This document shows, piece by piece, positions 1,180-19,748 of a DNA stretch of 64,000 nucleotides. The translations under genes were made by a program, and so were the position numbers. The first letter of the stretch is position 1; every line of letters starts with the position of its first letter. The stretch spans positions 558,001 to 622,000 of the forward strand of contig CP002098.1 of assembly GCA_000145985.1 (NCBI GenBank), read 5' to 3'. The stretch is from Ignisphaera aggregans DSM 17230. Its GTDB lineage: Archaea > Thermoproteota > Thermoprotei_A > Sulfolobales > Ignisphaeraceae. The notes beneath the pieces are model-generated. The model worked only from the letters and a program-made list of their open reading frames with translations. It did no database searches and was not told the DNA's origin.

Positions 1180-3351
1180 CTACAGCCCTCTCTCTATATT
1201 TTTAAATGTGTTGAATACACCGTATCTAGGTGATGAAACAATGTATTGGGTGTTAGCTATAATATATCTCACAAGTCTCTTTGTAGCTACCATACCAAGT
1301 TCGTCATAGACTATATCAAGAATTTTGTCAAGTGTATCAATAACACATCTAATGTTTCTCTTCTCTAATAGGCAATAGCTATAAACCTTTGCAAAGACAT
1401 CTATAAGCTCTGATCTATTGAGATACTCAGTAAAGCTATTTCTAATGATATTATCTTGTTCTAGAACAGTATTCGGAATAAGAATTACTATGGGTTCTAC
1501 AAACCATTGTTCTGAAGGCTCGGGATATACAATGGAGTCTAAGCTAAATACAGCTATGCTATCTCTAGCCACATTCTTCACCTGGTCTAGAACACTAGAG
1601 AGAATCTTCATAGCTACATATAGTGGGAATTTGGGGTGGATTATGATTGCTACTGAAGAAAGTGTAGAGATTTTGTATCTCTTCAAAATATCTCTTATAC
1701 CCTCAGTATCCTCTCTCATAACAATCTGTAGAGCCTTTATAGCCATATCGATGACAAGACCTCTAAATCTCTTTATATGTTCAAAAAGATTAGACAGTCT
1801 CTCCTCGGGTCTACGTCCAGTTAGAGTAGATATGAATAGATTTTCGTCTCCTCCTATATACACTATAAGCATTCTCAATGGCGATAGATAGGAAATAGCT
1901 AGCGATTTTTTGAGTATATGCATCATTATATATTCAATAGCATAGTCCCATATATATGTAAGGGGGTTTCTCTCTTCATCAACATCTAGATGTAGTAGAT
2001 TTGAAAACATATTCTCCATACTATTTCTAATCTCTTTAACTCTGTTGATGAGCTTGAATGGATTTGTTAATGTTCCAAAGTTATCACCATCGCTTTGAAT
2101 AATAGCAATAGTTCCCGAGTCTGATACACTTGCAAGAGTCTCTATATCGAGTATCTTGAGATCTCCTTTAGCATTTATATAGAAGATCTCATGGTCTAGA
2201 ACAGGATTTTGCTGTAGTGTATCGGGATATAGATATGGTACATAGCCAGAGCTCAGCCCTCTCTGTATACAGCTATATATAGCTGTAACAAGTTCATATA
2301 TCCTATCATCAACTCTATCCCTATTTCTTACTAAAATATCGAGAATCTTTGTCACATCCTCTACATATCTATTGTAGATAGAGTCTATCTCTTTGAGAAC
2401 ACTATATACATCTTCTCTTTTAGACACCTGATATATGTTGAGACCTTTAGCAAAACCGATTAGTGCATATGCTATAGAGACTCTATGGTCAGAACTACCA
2501 ATTGTTATTCCTATGAGTGTAGCATCATCAAGAAACAGTTTACTGTCTATAGATGTCTCCTGATGTCTATATACCTTAACTATGAGCTCGGCATATCCAG
2601 GATCATCACTTTTGAAATAAGCTATAGCTGTATCTCTAAGGGTTGTCGATGGAATATTGGTTAGATTTGGAAGAATAATCCCTATTACTATAGGGGAGTT
2701 GAGAACTCTTCCAATTAATCTAAACAGAATGTCTTTTATACACAAAGACTCTTCCTCTCTAATAACATGTGCAACAAGTTTATTGCCAATAGAATTAGCG
2801 TCATGGAGAGAGAAACCCTGTGTATAAGCACCACAGATACTACAATATAGTTTACTAGGTGTTGCAGAAAAACCATCTCTAGAACCTATATAGCCACCTC
2901 CATATATTTCTGCAAAACCTGTAGCTGTATAGGAATATAGCTGCTGTAGCCCATTGGAACCTCCGCGAAAGATCTTTAGACTAACTTCAGCAGGGATTAA
3001 CATATGTGAAACAATATTTATTAGTGAAACAACATCACTGTGAAACACATTAAGATATTTATTGATTATATCTCCACAATTAGTACCAGCAACATATATA
3101 GCATTTCCACCACATCTCAATACATATGCCCTACATCCATATCTCTCTAAATACCTTGAGAGAACACTTGCCACAAGCTTTCTCAACACAATAAGAAAAC
3201 CATTTCTACCACGGACATCGACAAGTCTTTGTGAATAGCCTAGAAATTGATGAACCTTTCTAATACTTATAACTATAAGAATTGTATCATCCCTAGAAAG
3301 TATATTGGTAAGCTCACCAAGATATTGCCGTAGTCTAGCTATGTCTATCAC
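1180..3351 (-). CDS. cas10: Cas10 large subunit of a divergent type III CRISPR system
   Basis: This 723-residue protein is the large subunit that nucleates a type III effector complex and in active forms makes cyclic oligoadenylate. The N-terminus starts directly with a palm-like segment (ILIVISIRKVHQFLGY, residues about 24-39, comparable to the start of Cmr2 after its HD domain). A zinc-ribbon-like CSIC lies near residue 168. SDGDNFG near residue 420 and GGDEN near residue 500 match the metal-binding and GGDD motifs of the second palm domain. No HD nuclease motif is visible. The motif reads GGDE rather than GGDD. It sits between two unrecognised genes on the same strand, spaced by 3 and 11 bases, so it is one operon. 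Cmr2 or Csx11 type cannot be settled here. Confidence 0.85.
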   Translation of the reverse strand: MIDIARLRQYLGELTNILSRDDTILIVISIRKVHQFLGYSQRLVDVRGRNGFLIVLRKLVASVLSRYLERYGCRAYVLRCGGNAIYVAGTNCGDIINKYLNVFHSDVVSLINIVSHMLIPAEVSLKIFRGGSNGLQQLYSYTATGFAEIYGGGYIGSRDGFSATPSKLYCSICGAYTQGFSLHDANSIGNKLVAHVIREEESLCIKDILFRLIGRVLNSPIVIGIILPNLTNIPSTTLRDTAIAYFKSDDPGYAELIVKVYRHQETSIDSKLFLDDATLIGITIGSSDHRVSIAYALIGFAKGLNIYQVSKREDVYSVLKEIDSIYNRYVEDVTKILDILVRNRDRVDDRIYELVTAIYSCIQRGLSSGYVPYLYPDTLQQNPVLDHEIFYINAKGDLKILDIETLASVSDSGTIAIIQSDGDNFGTLTNPFKLINRVKEIRNSMENMFSNLLHLDVDEERNPLTYIWDYAIEYIMMHILKKSLAISYLSPLRMLIVYIGGDENLFISTLTGRRPEERLSNLFEHIKRFRGLVIDMAIKALQIVMREDTEGIRDILKRYKISTLSSVAIIIHPKFPLYVAMKILSSVLDQVKNVARDSIAVFSLDSIVYPEPSEQWFVEPIVILIPNTVLEQDNIIRNSFTEYLNRSELIDVFAKVYSYCLLEKRNIRCVIDTLDKILDIVYDELGMVATKRLVRYIIANTQYIVSSPRYGVFNTFKNIERGL

Positions 3352-4710: not shown

Positions 4711-6039
4711 CTTTCAATTCCATTTATAGGATTTCACTCAATATAGGCTGTGGATGGAATACTCTTGACTATAGCTTCCTTTCAATTCCATATATTGGAT
4801 TCCCAGAAATAACTCAGGAGCAGTTACCAAGTTATTTACAAGATGCAATTTCACTTTCAATTCCATATATTGGATTCTTAAAGCACATCAGTTTATAGAA
4901 GCATTCTTTGAGGAATTGGAGCTTTCAATTCCATATATTGGATTCATGCACTATTGATCCTATAGATGATGGTATAATTCCCACAGCTGTCTTTCAATTC
5001 CATATATTGGATTCGGTCTAAGAAAGATATTGTAGAGGAAGCTGTTAGGTTGTATGTACTCTTTCAATTCCATATATTGGATTCTTCCAGCCTAAGACCT
5101 GAGTATACTAGTAACTTGTATACAGTACTCTTTCAATTCCATATATTGGATTCAGGACACTCTAACAGTTTCAGGTCTGCCTGAGGCAGAATCAATTTCG
5201 CTTTCAATTCCATATATTGGATTCTTTCATTGTTGATACAGCGACATTGGCATCGTTACAAAGTTGTTCCACTTTCAATTCCATATATTGGATTCATACT
5301 TTGATAGGCAATGTGTAAAGTTTGTGTTGAAGGTGATTAAACTTTCAATTCCATATATTGGATTCGCGAGAGAGCCCAAGATAGTCGTAAGCGATACGGC
5401 AGCTGATGCTTTCAATTCCATATATTGGATTCAGACCCTTAGACCTCTCAGAGAATACCCTGTACAGCACATACTTTCAATTCCATATATTGGATTCAAT
5501 CAACTAAACTAATAATCAGAATCAAGTATGGTGAACATGATCTTTCAATTCCATATATTGGATTCTCCAGATCAGAGGCGTGGATTGAGGAGTATAGGAA
5601 GTATATGCTTTCAATTCCATATATTGGATTCGCCCAACATAGTCATGAAATGGGACTTCGAGGACGGTACACCTCACTTTCAATTCCATATATTGGATTC
5701 ATGCTAGATTGAATAAATTCGAAGATGGGTGGGTCATTAAGGCTTTCAATTCCATATATTGGATTCCTACTTTATGATAGTCCTCAGCAAGAGACAGTTG
5801 CAAGATCTTACTTTCAATTCCATATATTGGATTCCCGAAGAATTGCCGGAGCTCTATCCGCCTAGGAAACAAACCGAGCTTTCAATTCCATATATTGGAT
5901 TCATCTTCGCATTAGCAGATAATATCACTACATGGTTAGCAATATCCGTCTTTCAATTCCATATATTGGATTCTTCGTGTGGCTGAAGAAATACCTAGGA
6001 AGTAAAGACTTGGAACTTTCAATTCCATATATTGGATTC
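4711..6039 (-). CRISPR. CRISPR array 1, 20 repeats, leader on the right
   Basis: There are twenty 24-base repeats with 19 spacers of about 41-51 bases. Repeat starts on the plus strand are 4711, 4779, 4854, 4922, 4991, 5061, 5130, 5201, 5272, 5342, 5409, 5474, 5542, 5608, 5677, 5743, 5811, 5879, 5950 and 6016. In transcript sense the repeat begins GAATCCAATATATGG and ends AATTGAAAG, the usual crenarchaeal 3' end that gives an 8-base ATTGAAAG handle. All internal copies look identical. The leftmost copy (4711) is degenerate (it has TATAAATGG and a changed first base), which marks the leader-distal end. The leader at 6040-6330 lies to the right, so transcription is leftwards. Spacer targets are unknown. 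Confidence 0.97.
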
Positions 6040-6330
6040 CGGGTCACGATTCCTCTATTCTTATCTTATTGTAGTCTCCATATATGGATTCAGAGTCTTA
6101 TGTATAAATACTTGATAAAGATTTAAAAATCTTTTTGCAGATCATCAAAGGCCATATTCTTCAAACATCAATGGTATAAAGGCTATGATCTGGCAATAGG
6201 TTTATTGCAATGGTGTCAACTCTATAGATATGTACACCTCGATAACAATTAGAGTGTATACATTCTCTATATACGTAAGATGAGCTTATATATAGGTTTA
6301 TAAATATTGCATAAAGCCTATTGCAATGGT
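6040..6330 (-). promoter_or_regulatory. CRISPR leader 1 (homologous to leader 2)
   Basis: This AT-rich non-coding block lies between array 1 and cas6 and is an inverted homologue of 8400-8689. Read towards array 1, it contains a TTGCA-n10-TGCAA palindrome (6307-6326), a second palindromic motif (6192-6210), a TTTAAA box around 6120-6130 that is probably the array promoter, and a truncated repeat-like element (6074-6091) exactly 34 bases before the first repeat. The other end carries TATAGGTTTATAAATATTG (6292-6308), which could be the promoter of cas6 in the opposite direction. The shared order and spacing with leader 2 is direct sequence evidence; the promoter calls are inferred. Confidence 0.85.
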
Positions 6331-6405
6331 CTGTATGGATAGAATGTGTATTGTTTTGATAAGGTTTATATATGTTTTGTGTGTTTTGTTTGTTTGGTGT
6401 TTTGT

Positions 6406-7287
6406 GTGTCTGGTTTTGTTTTTGGTGTTAGGTTTTGTGTTGTTCCTTTTGATAGGGTTTGTATTAATATCTATACTCCTAGGTTTGTTAAGGCTTTGTT
6501 GTTTTTGTCTAGGGGTTTTTCTTGGGTTAGGGGTTTGTATGAGGATAGGAGGTCTGTTAAGCCTTTTTCTCTTTCTCCTCTCTATGGTGGTAATGGCTAT
6601 GTTCTTGATGAGGGTGTTTGTATTGATTCTAGCTCTAGATATTTCTTTGATCTATCTATTGCTTCTAGGGATACATCTCTTCTCGACTCTATCTCTTCTG
6701 TTTATGAGGATGTTGTAGAGGTTTCTAGTTGGGGTGCTAGGTTTAGGGTTTCTATAGATAGTATAGAGATTGTATCTATAGATAATCTCTCTATAGGTTT
6801 CAATGACTCTGGTAAACAGGTTGTAAAACTTGTTTTCCATACACCTACACTTCTATCGTCAAAGCTTATGGCACCCCCTCTAGACTCTTTCAAGAAGAGG
6901 ATTGAGTCTATGCCAAATCTATATATCTTATATCCATCTACAGGACATATATGTAGCTATCTAGCAAGGCTATGGTATTCAGCTACAGGTAGATCTATAT
7001 GTAGTGGACCTACAGAGGAGTGGGCAGCATATTTCATGGGGAGGCTATGTGAGGCTACTCTTGTACCTATAGACTATAGAATTTCTCTAAAGACCGTTAG
7101 ATATGATGAGAATAGAAGGATTAGAGGATTTGTTGGATGGACAATACTTAGACTAGGTATAAGGAGTAGGAAGGTTATAGATAGGATAGACAAGATATTT
7201 GCACTAGCATCAAAACTAGGTATAGGAAAGTCTAGAACTATAGGCTTTGGAATCACAAGAGCTTTTGTCAAAGAGCTTAGGGATTAG
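6406..7287 (+). CDS. cas6: Cas6 CRISPR RNA endoribonuclease
   Basis: Cas6 cuts the precursor transcript of the arrays within the repeat to give crRNAs with an 8-base 5' handle. The C-terminal KLGIGKSRTIGFGITRAF is the glycine-rich loop that identifies Cas6, and the body (VPFDRVCINIYTPRFVKALLF at the N-terminus) fits the first ferredoxin-like domain. The open frame reaches back to a GTG at 6346, but its first 20 residues are a Cys/Phe/Val low-complexity run, so I prefer the GTG at 6406; TTG 6394 is also possible. No clear ribosome binding site is present. It is convergent with csa1, and the repeats it should process lie on both sides. The catalytic His is not obvious. Confidence 0.88.
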   Translation: MSGFVFGVRFCVVPFDRVCINIYTPRFVKALLFLSRGFSWVRGLYEDRRSVKPFSLSPLYGGNGYVLDEGVCIDSSSRYFFDLSIASRDTSLLDSISSVYEDVVEVSSWGARFRVSIDSIEIVSIDNLSIGFNDSGKQVVKLVFHTPTLLSSKLMAPPLDSFKKRIESMPNLYILYPSTGHICSYLARLWYSATGRSICSGPTEEWAAYFMGRLCEATLVPIDYRISLKTVRYDENRRIRGFVGWTILRLGIRSRKVIDRIDKIFALASKLGIGKSRTIGFGITRAFVKELRD

Positions 7288-7352
7288 CATATAGACAGAT
7301 ATTCTTGTTTTATAACTAGAGTTTCACAGAGCAAAAATGTTAAGACTGTATA

Positions 7353-7447
7353 GAATCCTATAAATGGAATTGAAAGGTTATATGGTCTGGATGAAATCCT
7401 AGTGTAAATAGATATACTGTCATGAATCCAATAAATGGAATTGAAAG
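7353..7447 (+). CRISPR. One-spacer mini-array embedded in the 3' end of csa1
   Basis: Two 24-base repeats lie at 7353-7376 and 7424-7447 with a 47-base spacer. Both read GAATCC(T/A)ATAAATGG followed by AATTGAAAG, the same orientation as array 2. The TATAAATGG variant matches the degenerate distal repeat of array 1 and the stray repeat at 10339 rather than the main arrays. The csa1 reading frame runs through the right-hand repeat and the spacer, and its stop codon lies within the left-hand repeat. No leader precedes it, so transcription would depend on read-through from cas6. Confidence 0.9.
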
Positions 7448-8206
7448 TACATCGCTTAGGAGAATATCTATAGCCTCATCTCTAAGCTCTATAAACTCCT
7501 TTCTAACATCATTACCTATATACACAGGTTCTATCTTTATAGCTGTTCCATCGCTATTTACAAGCATTAGAATTCCAAAGTCTATAGGCATCTCGATAAA
7601 GCTCTCCATAGCTATTGCATATCCTGCTAATACATCTATATAGTCTCTTCTAAAAGAGCCATACTTCAGCTCAATGATTACAGAACCCTCAAAGAGTGCA
7701 TCAACTCTTAGATTTCTTGACAAACCTATTAGAGATCCATCAACAGTAAACTCTGTTATTGCTATAGGTGATCCTAGCTCCATAGCCATAGAGCTCCATA
7801 TAAATGAAAACTCTTTACACAGCTTCTCAACATTTATAATATTGTTATACACCTTTGCGGACTTTATACACTGTCTATATCCATATTCATATGCATCCCA
7901 AGGACTATAACCACTAAATATAGCTTTTGCAACAACACCGCTAGAGATATGGAAGATGCTGTGAATAGCAAAACCCTTCCTCATACCATCACTAGCCTCA
8001 CCCTCGACACCAATCCTCCTCCTAAGCCACAAATCCCTCCTACTAGGACAAAACCTATAGACAGCATCAGCCATAGAAAGCTCTAGAAAAGCCCTAGGCC
8101 TCAAAGGCTTCTCATACCAATGCCAACCCCTAAGACCCTCATCAACAGGATCACTAGCTCTATACACATGCAACCTCCTCAAAGATCTAGATATCCTTCC
8201 AAACAT
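7358..8206 (-). CDS. csa1: Csa1 (Cas4-family nuclease), C-terminus replaced by CRISPR repeat sequence
   Basis: Csa1 is a Cas4-related RecB-like nuclease of type I-A adaptation modules that helps process new spacers. GWHWYEKPLRP followed by YRFCPSRRDLWLRRR near residues 45-60 is the family hallmark, including the N-terminal iron-sulphur Cys. The nuclease core shows ITEFTVDG, an RVDALFEG Asp, IELKYG (E-x-K) and DVLAGYAIAMES. The last 27 or so residues are translated from a CRISPR repeat, a spacer and part of another repeat (VLSIPFIGF is repeat), and the cluster of C-terminal Cys expected in the Cas4 family is absent. Start ATG 8206 has GTGAT upstream and gives 282 residues. cas1, cas2 and cas4 are not in the window. 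It may be inactive. Confidence 0.85.
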   Translation of the reverse strand: MFGRISRSLRRLHVYRASDPVDEGLRGWHWYEKPLRPRAFLELSMADAVYRFCPSRRDLWLRRRIGVEGEASDGMRKGFAIHSIFHISSGVVAKAIFSGYSPWDAYEYGYRQCIKSAKVYNNIINVEKLCKEFSFIWSSMAMELGSPIAITEFTVDGSLIGLSRNLRVDALFEGSVIIELKYGSFRRDYIDVLAGYAIAMESFIEMPIDFGILMLVNSDGTAIKIEPVYIGNDVRKEFIELRDEAIDILLSDVLSIPFIGFMTVYLFTLGFHPDHITFQFHL

Positions 8207-8399
8207 ATAGATCACAAGAAAACACAAAACAAACAAATATATCAAAACACCATAACAACAAACAAAAACACCAATGCAAAAACCCTATTGCAAAAACAAC
8301 AACAAAACCATAAAACAAAACCCAAAAACAAATAGAAAAGAAACAAAAACACAATTGCAACAAAACATATACACACATCACACATTCTATAGTTATAGA
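8207..8399. other. Low-complexity A/C-rich upstream region of csa1
   Basis: The plus strand is dominated by CAAAA and AACAA units, so the minus strand is T/G-rich. It mirrors the T/G-rich start of the cas6 side (6350-6450), which supports an inverted duplication extending from the leader into the 5' region of each cas gene. Hydrophobic open frames here (Phe/Cys/Val only) are not credible proteins. Confidence 0.6.
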
Positions 8400-8689
8400 T
8401 CATTGCAATAGGCTTTATGCAATATTTATAAATCTCTATATAAATCTATTTTACTTATCTAGAGATTGTATGTACCTCTATTATTGTTGAGGTGTACTAA
8501 TTGTTCTAGTTGACATCTTTGCAATAACTCTATTGCCAGTCCATAACCTTTACACTATTGATGGTTGAAGAATATTGTCTTTGATGATCTGCAAAAAGAT
8601 TTAAAAATCTTTATCAAGTTATTGTAAATAGAACTCTGAATCCATATATGGAGACTAGGATAAGAAAAGAATAGAGAGTCCATAACCCG
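8400..8689 (+). promoter_or_regulatory. CRISPR leader 2 (inverted homologue of leader 1)
   Basis: This non-coding region precedes array 2. From left to right it has the TTGCA-n10-TGCAA palindrome (8403-8422), a TTTATAAATC box (8426-8435), the second palindromic motif TTGCAATAACTCTATTGCC (8519-8537), a block GCAAAAAGATTTAAAAATC (8592-8610) that is probably the TATA/BRE of the array promoter, and a truncated repeat GAATCCATATATGGAGAC (8638-8655) exactly 34 bases before the first repeat. The two palindromes are 96 bases apart, as in leader 1. It may also drive csa1 in the other direction. Confidence 0.85.
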
Positions 8690-9736
8690 GAATCCTACAA
8701 ATGGAATTGAAAGAGCAAATAGGACAATTAGACCGCCTTCTGCCCGCCCTACAGTTTTTCGAATCCTACAAATGGAATTGAAAGTCACCAATTGCGGTAT
8801 CCAGCACATCCACAGCTATACGCTCTGTCTCGAATCCTACAAATGGAATTGAAAGGGAAGCTTGCCGACGTCACGGAGCGTTCCAATGTACTGCTCAAGA
8901 ATCCTACAAATGGAATTGAAAGCCACAATCTTCACCCTTTCATATCTGCTCCTGCCTCTCTTCAGAATCCTATATATGGAATTGAAAGCAGAGACAAAGC
9001 ATGTTGATGTTACTGAGGAGATTAGGAAGAGGGAATCCTATATATGGAATTGAAAGCATTAACTCTTCTGCCTCTATAGCTTCTTCCTCAACGCCTGTAG
9101 AATCCTATATATGGAATTGAAAGTAACATGTCATTTAGTAGATCCACCAATGAGACCTGACCAGAGAGATATGAATCCTATATATGGAATTGAAAGTGTG
9201 CTATACCAGCACCTATCCTCTTAAGTTCACCCAATGTTATGAATCCTATATATGGAATTGAAAGTAAATGCCAACGCTTCATACATGTTTGACATTGTAG
9301 TTGAGGAATCCTATATATGGAATTGAAAGGTTCAGCAGAATCATGAAGTTCAGCAGAAAGCTGTCTGAGAATCCTATATATGGAATTGAAAGTCTATCCC
9401 CTGATAATATCTAGCACAGACTTTGCCAAGACCTTGAAGAATCCTATATATGGAATTGAAAGTTAGAACTATAGTATCTCACATCTCTCGACATACACCT
9501 TCCTCCTCAGAATCCTATATATGGAATTGAAAGTGCTCAGAACCCTTGACAGCACAGCGTCTTCTAGGCTGGGCAGAATCCTATATATGGAATTGAAAGG
9601 ATATATCTTAGAACTCTATCCTTAGCCCAATCATATATGACATGAATCCTATATATGGAATTGAAAGGTTTAGGCACTCCTCCTCGATTGACCGCATCTC
9701 AATATCTTCATGGAATCCAATATATGGAATTGAAAG
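8690..9736 (+). CRISPR. CRISPR array 2, 16 repeats, leader on the left
   Basis: Sixteen 24-base repeats and 15 spacers of about 39-49 bases. Repeat starts are 8690, 8761, 8832, 8899, 8965, 9033, 9100, 9173, 9241, 9306, 9369, 9439, 9510, 9576, 9644 and 9713. The first four copies, next to the leader, read GAATCCTACAAATGG; the next eleven read GAATCCTATATATGG; the last reads GAATCCAATATATGG, the array 1 type. All end AATTGAAAG. Transcription is rightwards from leader 2. The repeat is close enough to array 1 that one Cas6 should process both. Confidence 0.97.
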
Positions 9737-10143: not shown

Positions 10144-10350
10144 GGAGAGATGTTCTATTGCCTTACAACATAGGGGAGATTCTATCAATTTTGGAAAATC
10201 TGAAGACAGTACTTAGAGGCGGTTCAATGTGGTTCAATTTGTTCAGAATCTGATTAAGGAATATAGAAGATGCTTATTGGTTGGATCCTAGAACAAAGAG
10301 ATGCTTTGAAATTCTTAGAAACATAATAAGCTATTTTGGAATCCTATAAA
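10140..10350 (+). pseudogene. Small gene with an in-frame TGA, ending inside a stray CRISPR repeat
   Basis: From the ATG at 10140 the frame gives 37 residues (MRRDVLLPYNIGEILSILEN at the start) up to a TGA at 10251. The same frame continues sensibly beyond it for another 32 residues (NIEDAYWLDPRTKRCFEILR) to a TAA at 10348-10350, inside the stray repeat. One nonsense mutation in a gene of about 70 codons is the simplest reading. The family is not recognised. Confidence 0.35.
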
Positions 10351-10362
10351 TGGAATTGAAAG
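10339..10362 (+). repeat. Isolated CRISPR repeat
   Basis: A complete single 24-base repeat (GAATCCTATAAATGG then AATTGAAAG) lies about 600 bases beyond the end of array 2 in the same orientation. It has the TATAAATGG variant shared with the mini-array at 7353 and the distal repeat of array 1. No second copy is within a spacer length. It is probably the remnant of an older end of array 2. Confidence 0.9.
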
Positions 10363-10481
10363 ATAGAGATCTTCTAATGCTTGAAGTCTTAATAGGAGCC
10401 CGGTGAATGGATTTGATTGAATGTTCAAAAAGTTTATAAATTTCTTTGGCGTATAGTATATTGGAGATGTTGTAGATAGAG

Positions 10482-19330: not shown

Positions 19331-19748
19331 TGCAATCACCTAATGAGCTAACCAATCATCGCCTATTTTCCTAACTTTATACACCTTAACTATCTACATC
19401 ACATGGATAGCGCTGTACTGTTTAAGAGATATAAAAGTCTTTATTCTATATTCTATGGATCCTAAGATAGATCAGATAGAGTTCTTTGCTAAATAATGGT
19501 ATTTGTATTATTGGGGATGTGTTAGAATTTTGGATAGAGTAGGATAAAATAAGGATAAACAGACTATAGCTTTGATCCTATAAACGGGGTTGAAAGTCTT
19601 TAATTCGAGTGATTATTAAAGGGTTTCATAGAGTCTTATAAATGGGGTTGAGGATTGATTTAAATATATGTGGTTTATATGTTTTGTGATGTGTTTTGAT
19701 ATGAACTGTTTATACAAATGCTTATAATCCTGTGTTTTAAAAACTGAT
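19331..19748. other. Intergenic with decayed CRISPR repeats
   Basis: No gene seen. The block separates the divergent MFS and VWA genes, holds the two decayed repeats described separately, and has a TTATAA box at 19722-19727 that probably serves the VWA operon. Confidence 0.6.
19574..19653 (+). repeat. Decayed CRISPR repeat pair
   Basis: GATCCTATAAACGGGGTTGAAAG (two parts, GATCCTATAAACGG and GGTTGAAAG, 19574-19596) and a poorer copy GAGTCTTATAAATGG then GGTTGAGG (19631-19653) are separated by 34 bases. Both resemble the local repeat type with GG in place of AA before TTGA. This is a likely relic of an old array or an ectopic insertion about 10 kb from the active arrays. Confidence 0.65.

Follow-up and report, generated by a model that had tools for sequence, protein, structure and literature searches.

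Loss of the adaptation module from CRISPR loci is common, and its cause is rarely visible. Three described systems come close to the locus reported here. Self-targeting spacers drive large deletions and the loss of cas genes (PMC6990116). CreA and CreR RNAs are produced from one or two ectopic repeats (PMC9458426, PMC12737573). In the type I-A system of S. islandicus, Csa3a is encoded on the reverse strand beside csa1-cas1-cas2-cas4 and activates these genes (PMC4333418).

The window analysed here, a stretch of 64,000 nucleotides from Ignisphaera aggregans DSM 17230, contains a csa1 gene whose 3' end is replaced by a CRISPR repeat-spacer-repeat unit. Much as in the self-targeting cases (PMC6990116), the spacer may derive from a chromosomal gene, and this putative target and its surroundings are now missing. 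Here, however, the gene in question is the adaptation module's own regulator, and the spacer sits where a truncated adaptation gene joins the unit; the match is to Csa3 at the protein level, a nucleotide-level self match being lost or unproven. The unit is like the sources of CreA and CreR RNAs (PMC9458426, PMC12737573) in having one or two repeats outside the arrays, in a cas locus, with a spacer related to a cas-linked gene. It differs in its canonical rather than degenerate repeats, in a spacer that covers a coding start instead of a promoter, and in having neither a toxin nor a target left. The truncated protein has the family fold and motifs of type I-A Csa1 (Cas4', PF06023/TIGR01896), and csa3 adjoins csa1 in its relatives, as in S. 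islandicus (PMC4333418); but it has no C-terminal Cys triad, and no cas1, cas2, cas4 or csa3 adjoins it.

Organization of the locus

Two arrays of a single 24-nt repeat family face outward in the window, and the converging genes cas6 and csa1 lie between them (Table 1). A 402-nt imperfect inverted repeat (6016-6417 and 8312-8713, 77%) comprises the array leaders and the upstream parts of cas6 and csa1. Repeat-like sites number 39 in the window and 0.00 in shuffled sequences, and chance is thereby excluded. Because the source genome is closed (1,875,953 bases), an assembly error at the junction of csa1 with the unit is unlikely.

Table 1. Positions of the features around csa1 and cas6 in the window
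Feature	Position	Strand	Description
CRISPR array 1	4711..6039	-	20 repeats, 24-nt family
Leader of array 1	6040..6345	-	common to the cas6 upstream region; arm of the 402-nt inverted repeat
cas6	6346..7287	+	Pfam PF10040; PADLOC Cas6a, 4.8e-29
Interval from cas6 to the unit	7288..7352	+	65 nt; unlike the leaders of the neighbouring arrays
Repeat 1 of the unit	7353-7376	+	GAATCCTATAAATGGAATTGAAAG; 24 nt, intact; identical to repeats of the 547 kb array; csa1 stop codon (- strand) inside
Spacer of the unit	7377-7423	+	47 nt; - strand reads MTVYLFTLGFHPDHI, matching the N-terminus of Csa3
Repeat 2 of the unit	7424-7447	+	GAATCCAATAAATGGAATTGAAAG; 24 nt, intact; same sequence as the 1494 kb array repeats; immediately adjacent to csa1
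Foreign C-terminal tail of the csa1 frame	7358..7447	-	29 residues and stop, from repeat, spacer and repeat
csa1, native part	7448..8245	-	residues 1-266 of the longest frame; ATG at 8206
Leader of array 2	8386..8689	+	divergent from csa1
CRISPR array 2	8690..9736	+	16 repeats, 24-nt family

Partly decayed repeats of the same family occur outside the arrays, solo or paired, at 10339-10362 and at 19573-19596 with 19631-19654 of the window, and at 529958, 534199 and 534252 of the genome, the copy at 529958 being a single repeat with leader-like sequence before it. Type III-like genes lie to the left of array 1 (window 1180-3351, L042:9265-19176) and encode Cas10 and several RAMP proteins; some members of the set match weakly or not at all.

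The truncated Csa1 protein

Read on the minus strand, the csa1 frame (7358-8245) continues across repeat 2 and the spacer to a stop codon at 7358-7360, inside repeat 1. The first-pass annotation of this DNA had described two full repeats and a 47-base spacer in the last part of the frame, a stop codon within a repeat and translated repeat and spacer in place of the normal C-terminus, all of which is borne out. The alignment with other Csa1 proteins that it had proposed as a check places the end of homology at the repeat border: V266 (in LLSDV) is the final native residue, and its codon ends at base 7448, which adjoins repeat 2. The Pfam Csa1 profile PF06023 covers residues 17-264 and is matched to position 269 of 292 (193.2 bits against a cut-off of 27), and TIGR01896 is matched to position 253 of 273 (196.9 bits against a cut-off of 103.35), so that the matches stop 20-23 positions short of the profile ends. 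Whereas the relatives end in DPGxxxxCxxxCPFxxxC, the window protein continues from LLSDV into LSIPFIGF, the translation of the repeat. About 20 codons, including those of three C-terminal Cys residues, are missing.

The only Cys residues of the frame are at positions 8, 66, 126 and 143, in agreement with the earlier statement that no C-terminal Cys is left. The RecB motifs (D and E-x-K) are present as RVDALFE and ELKYG, and the N-terminal FCPSRRDLWLR is intact. The Fe-S signature of Csa1, an N-terminal Cys plus the C-terminal triad, is therefore incomplete, with the triad missing. Both parts are found in 47 of the 57 aligned Csa1 proteins, including the closest relative; one further row, interrupted in its source by an in-frame stop, was uninformative. 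Among these 57 proteins, only the window Csa1 combines an intact N-terminal Cys motif with a missing triad. This combination suggests that the triad was lost recently and by accident.

An AlphaFold2 model shows a confidently folded core up to about residue 253 of the modelled chain and pLDDT values below 50 from residue 254, and the foreign tail is predicted to be disordered. A structure search with the window Csa1 returned only weak RecB/Cas4/Dna2-type matches with low TM-scores. The window csa1 is a truncated remnant of a Csa1 gene and not a full member of the family.

A natural clade of seven Csa1 proteins also lacks the Cys triad (tree support 100/97; L024 and L130-L135, from G058, G144, G140, G143, G113, G149 and G088). 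In six of the seven, annotated frames place other adaptation genes directly after csa1, mostly cas1 and in one case cas4; for the seventh (G058), a cas1-like protein downstream is seen in raw frames only. A csa1 family without the C-terminal Cys had been named in the first-pass annotation as evidence that would refute its reading. Such a clade exists and counts in part against that reading, but its N-terminal Cys motif is altered too, whereas that of the window protein is intact.

Cys-to-Ala mutants of SSO1391 retain nuclease activity (PMC4176176), and SSO1391 is a Csa1-type protein by length and numbering. Because these mutants stay active and a Cys-less clade exists in nature, the loss of the Cys residues by itself need not inactivate the window Csa1. 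With its RecB motifs kept and the SSO1391 mutants active, the protein may still cut DNA; since it has no Cas1 partners of its own, it is doubtful that it takes part in adaptation. The closest Csa1 is that of G011, a genome of the same family, with 63% identity and a sister position supported at 100/100, and the branches from the common node to the two proteins are equal in length (0.33 each). The absence of any sign of fast decay in the branch length, the intact RecB motifs, the core modelled with confidence and the activity of the SSO1391 mutants (PMC4176176) would all agree with a functional Fe-S-free variant kept under selection, as in the Cys-less clade. We nevertheless regard such a variant as unlikely, given a locus without a cas1 or cas2 partner, a tail predicted to be disordered and an N-terminal Cys motif that, being intact, points to recent loss.

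The repeat-spacer-repeat unit

The two repeats of the unit are two different standard array repeats of the genome, and its spacer is of ordinary length, array spacers spanning 39-51 nt. The unit thus has the canonical repeats and the usual spacer length of a CRISPR array. No leader of its own was found: the left flank (7288..7352) scores within shuffles for four of the five arrays of the genome and shows a weak excess over shuffles only against the 1494 kb leader and the leader of G001. This flank was accordingly rejected as a leader. The unit follows cas6 in crRNA orientation, and no terminator-like site was found between the two. The preferred reading is that the unit is an array remnant that has no leader. 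Read-through from cas6 could, as a prediction, give a crRNA antisense to csa3 mRNA. A csa3 that could serve as its target was not found in the present genome.

The first-pass annotation had attributed the unit to ectopic spacer integration or recombination. Cas1-Cas2 integration duplicates its target sequence. An ectopic Cas1-Cas2 insertion into csa1 would explain the exact borders of spacer and repeats, but it should have left a duplicated target, and here there are two different standard array repeats. In addition, the 3' part of csa1 is not present on the far side of the unit in any frame. Because the repeats belong to other arrays and the csa1 end is missing beyond the unit, ectopic integration fails as an explanation and is highly improbable, whereas the other half of the proposal, recombination with array DNA, fits better.

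The junction of csa1 with the repeat falls no more than about 3 nt from where the repeat ends; by a rough estimate, the chance of this for a random break is about 4 in 70, a figure that counts against the account of the junction given below. A HAD-like frame, AVVLDLNGTLVDC, in the trailer of the 536 kb array (L041:16265-16387) likewise enters the terminal repeat exactly at its border. For this candidate second truncated gene, 41 genomes yielded no homologue and Pfam no match.

The spacer and Csa3

What the first-pass annotation had overlooked, and what is new here, is that the spacer itself, judged by its translation, encodes the start of the CARF regulator Csa3. In relatives, the proteins encoded close to csa1 or cas6 that TIGR01884 identifies as Csa3 begin ...FTLGFHADHVIRRL or MASYIFTLGFHEDFI, and the minus strand of the spacer reads alike (Table 1). 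The ungapped score of the spacer translation against Csa3 is 60, compared with a mean of 21.3, a standard deviation of 2.8 and a maximum of 32 for 150 shuffles. In a tblastn search of all 65 spacers in six frames against cas regions, the unit spacer gave the best match (27.7 bits) and matched the csa3 genes of several genomes; the maximum for three shuffled spacer sets was 23.5 bits. Against the Csa3 of G049, 10 of 15 residues are identical, with Met aligned on Met. The nucleotides of the relatives' csa3 agree with the spacer at 19-29 of 47 positions, and the match is thus at the protein level only.

The search of the spacer against viruses and the genome, also proposed earlier, gave no phage match, no exact 19-mer in viral contigs and no nucleotide match in the present genome. 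The degenerate pattern FTLGFHPDHI is absent from the viral and genome contigs searched, and a viral spacer was rejected on these grounds. A csa3 of the spacer type was not found in phage or plasmid records, and because of this a chromosomal source is favoured, either the lineage's own csa3 or that of a relative. Our inference is that the lineage sampled its own csa3, although the csa3 of another cell may be the source. With the Csa3 of G011 as query, no credible match appeared in the source genome, the best having an E value of 0.134, a result from one query with which a strongly diverged csa3 could be missed.

Two further readings of the spacer were rejected. It fits in no frame as a piece of the lost csa1 end. 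Nor is it a csa3 relic in place, since relatives have csa3 either in divergent orientation to csa1 or upstream of it, and the fragment is exactly spacer-sized and flanked by two complete repeats. The other spacers of these arrays gave no convincing csa3 match. One spacer of the 1494 kb array (L045, after position 10436), with the translation TNIHVATPRPIIPS, resembles Csa3 DAIHIVTARPVVRA with an ungapped score of 37, above the shuffle maximum of 32; it is unremarkable in tblastn, and a derivation from Csa3 is not claimed.

The position of the unit also calls for consideration of a CreR-like regulatory mini-CRISPR, in which a crRNA-like RNA antisense to the csa3 start would repress csa3 and hence the adaptation genes, its target having been lost later or now being supplied by another gene. 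RNAs from one or two ectopic repeats have precedents in CreA and CreR (PMC9458426, PMC12737573), and the present two-repeat unit is ectopic within a cas locus and follows cas6 after 65 nt in crRNA orientation, no terminator-like site having been found in this interval; its RNA would be complementary to csa3 mRNA over the start codon and the codons next to it. However, CreA repeats are typically degenerate, and the repeats here are canonical with a spacer of ordinary length. The csa3 target was not found in the genome, and the window holds 15 seed-like sites of 14 nt with 3 mismatches against 8.4 expected, only a modest excess. Such a regulatory role is very unlikely.

A second adaptation module and comparison with relatives

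The sole cas1 of the genome is at 867 kb, 300 kb from the window csa1, together with a full-length csa1, cas2, cas4, a I-A gene set and arrays built on another repeat family, of 25 nt. No cas1, cas2 or cas4 stands in an operon with the window csa1, and csa3 is missing there as well. The csa1 beside the sole cas1 (L044:8325-11035, 858-878 kb) lacks the E-x-K lysine, as do its relatives elsewhere, and this group is, from its sequences, likely a nuclease-dead Csa1 subfamily. The window copy, in contrast, has the catalytic motif but no Cys triad. Adaptation today probably depends on the csa1-cas1-cas2-cas4 genes at 867 kb, as a second module, and the window csa1 is an orphan remnant. The earlier suggestion that truncation has disabled spacer acquisition is weakened by the full-length csa1 beside the sole cas1, by the Cys-less clade in operons and by the active SSO1391 mutants. 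Sulfolobus Cas1 is specific for its own leader (PMC5815122), and because of this specificity the window arrays may, by analogy, be frozen.

In G011, csa1 overlaps cas1, which is followed by cas2, and csa3 is divergent on the same contig (L046); this genome has 58 repeats close to the repeat family of the window. The order in G026 is array, leader, csa1, cas1, cas2, cas4, csa3 and cas6, with a second array further on. G001 carries, 3' of cas6 and in the same orientation, an array whose repeat is identical to repeat 2. The window locus looks like a locus of the G011/G026 type minus cas1, cas2, (cas4) and csa3. The same junction, which the first-pass annotation had proposed to look for in related genomes, is absent from 11 genomes of the genus, and a protein scan of the genome contigs found no relative.

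G001 also contains a csa1 fragment of 38 codons with one TGA between unrelated genes (L083:9217-9330; G001:C36:19217-19330). Single repeats with A/T-rich, leader-like upstream sequence occur in G001, G004 and G007 (L047:16042, L173:2305, L174:3543) and are perhaps empty arrays, consisting of a leader and one repeat.

Origin of the junction

The unit is probably, though by no means securely, what is left, without a leader, of an array whose anti-csa3 spacer came from the lineage itself or from kin, and it would mark the junction of a rearrangement that deleted the adaptation module. The truncation at the repeat border, the orphan status of csa1, the Csa3 identity of the spacer, the failure to find csa3 and the missing leader are the observations from which this account starts; self-targeting or recombination between spacer and gene would have driven the deletion. 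The ancestral locus would have carried, as in relatives, csa1-cas1-cas2(-cas4) with csa3 adjoining, between two outward-facing arrays, although its cas6 and leader may have been arranged otherwise than in G026. An array of the same repeat family would then have taken up, as a spacer, the start of the lineage's own csa3 or of that of a close relative, and have become joined to csa1, with loss of the last ~20 csa1 codons, cas1, cas2 and csa3. The product would be the present order of cas6, repeat, csa3 spacer, repeat and truncated csa1.

Two routes to the deletion can be envisaged. An anti-csa3 crRNA would have made csa3 a self-target, and cleavage and repair would have deleted the adaptation module, the survivors being cells that had lost the target. 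Alternatively, a neighbouring spacer derived from csa1 would have undergone recombination with csa1, the two being in direct orientation, and the intervening DNA would have been lost, including the csa1 tail and cas1-cas2; a border close to the repeat end would then be an automatic outcome. A mechanism in which spacers from csa3, and perhaps csa1, recombined with the adaptation locus or guided its cutting and so erased it, leaving the truncated gene and the spacer together in the scar, or in which a CreR-like mini-array repressed Csa3 at its start codon, is tentative and rather improbable when stated in this form. The basis is one genome, and no second genome in the data has the same junction.

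The same arrangement could have arisen by neutral deletion, with csa1 joined by illegitimate recombination to an existing array end and the csa3 spacer, self- or kin-derived, being a coincidence with no causal part. A redundant adaptation module exists elsewhere in the genome, the other array relics and solo repeats of the region indicate that arrays decay and rearrange, and no sequence feature demands selection. However, only one of the 65 spacers matches csa3, the neighbouring gene that is now missing, and it is carried by the sole unit at the junction; neutral deletion is a possible but somewhat unlikely explanation.

Implications

The scar described here places a spacer from the regulator that switches on spacer acquisition beside a cut adaptation gene. 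As a practical point, even where nucleotides give no match, a spacer can be traced by translating it and comparing the product with the families of nearby genes. The locus suggests that the immune system once sampled its own memory-making genes and may have helped to delete them. If the self-sampling of csa3 caused the loss, it would provide a concrete route to frozen CRISPR arrays, which could be tested in related strains.
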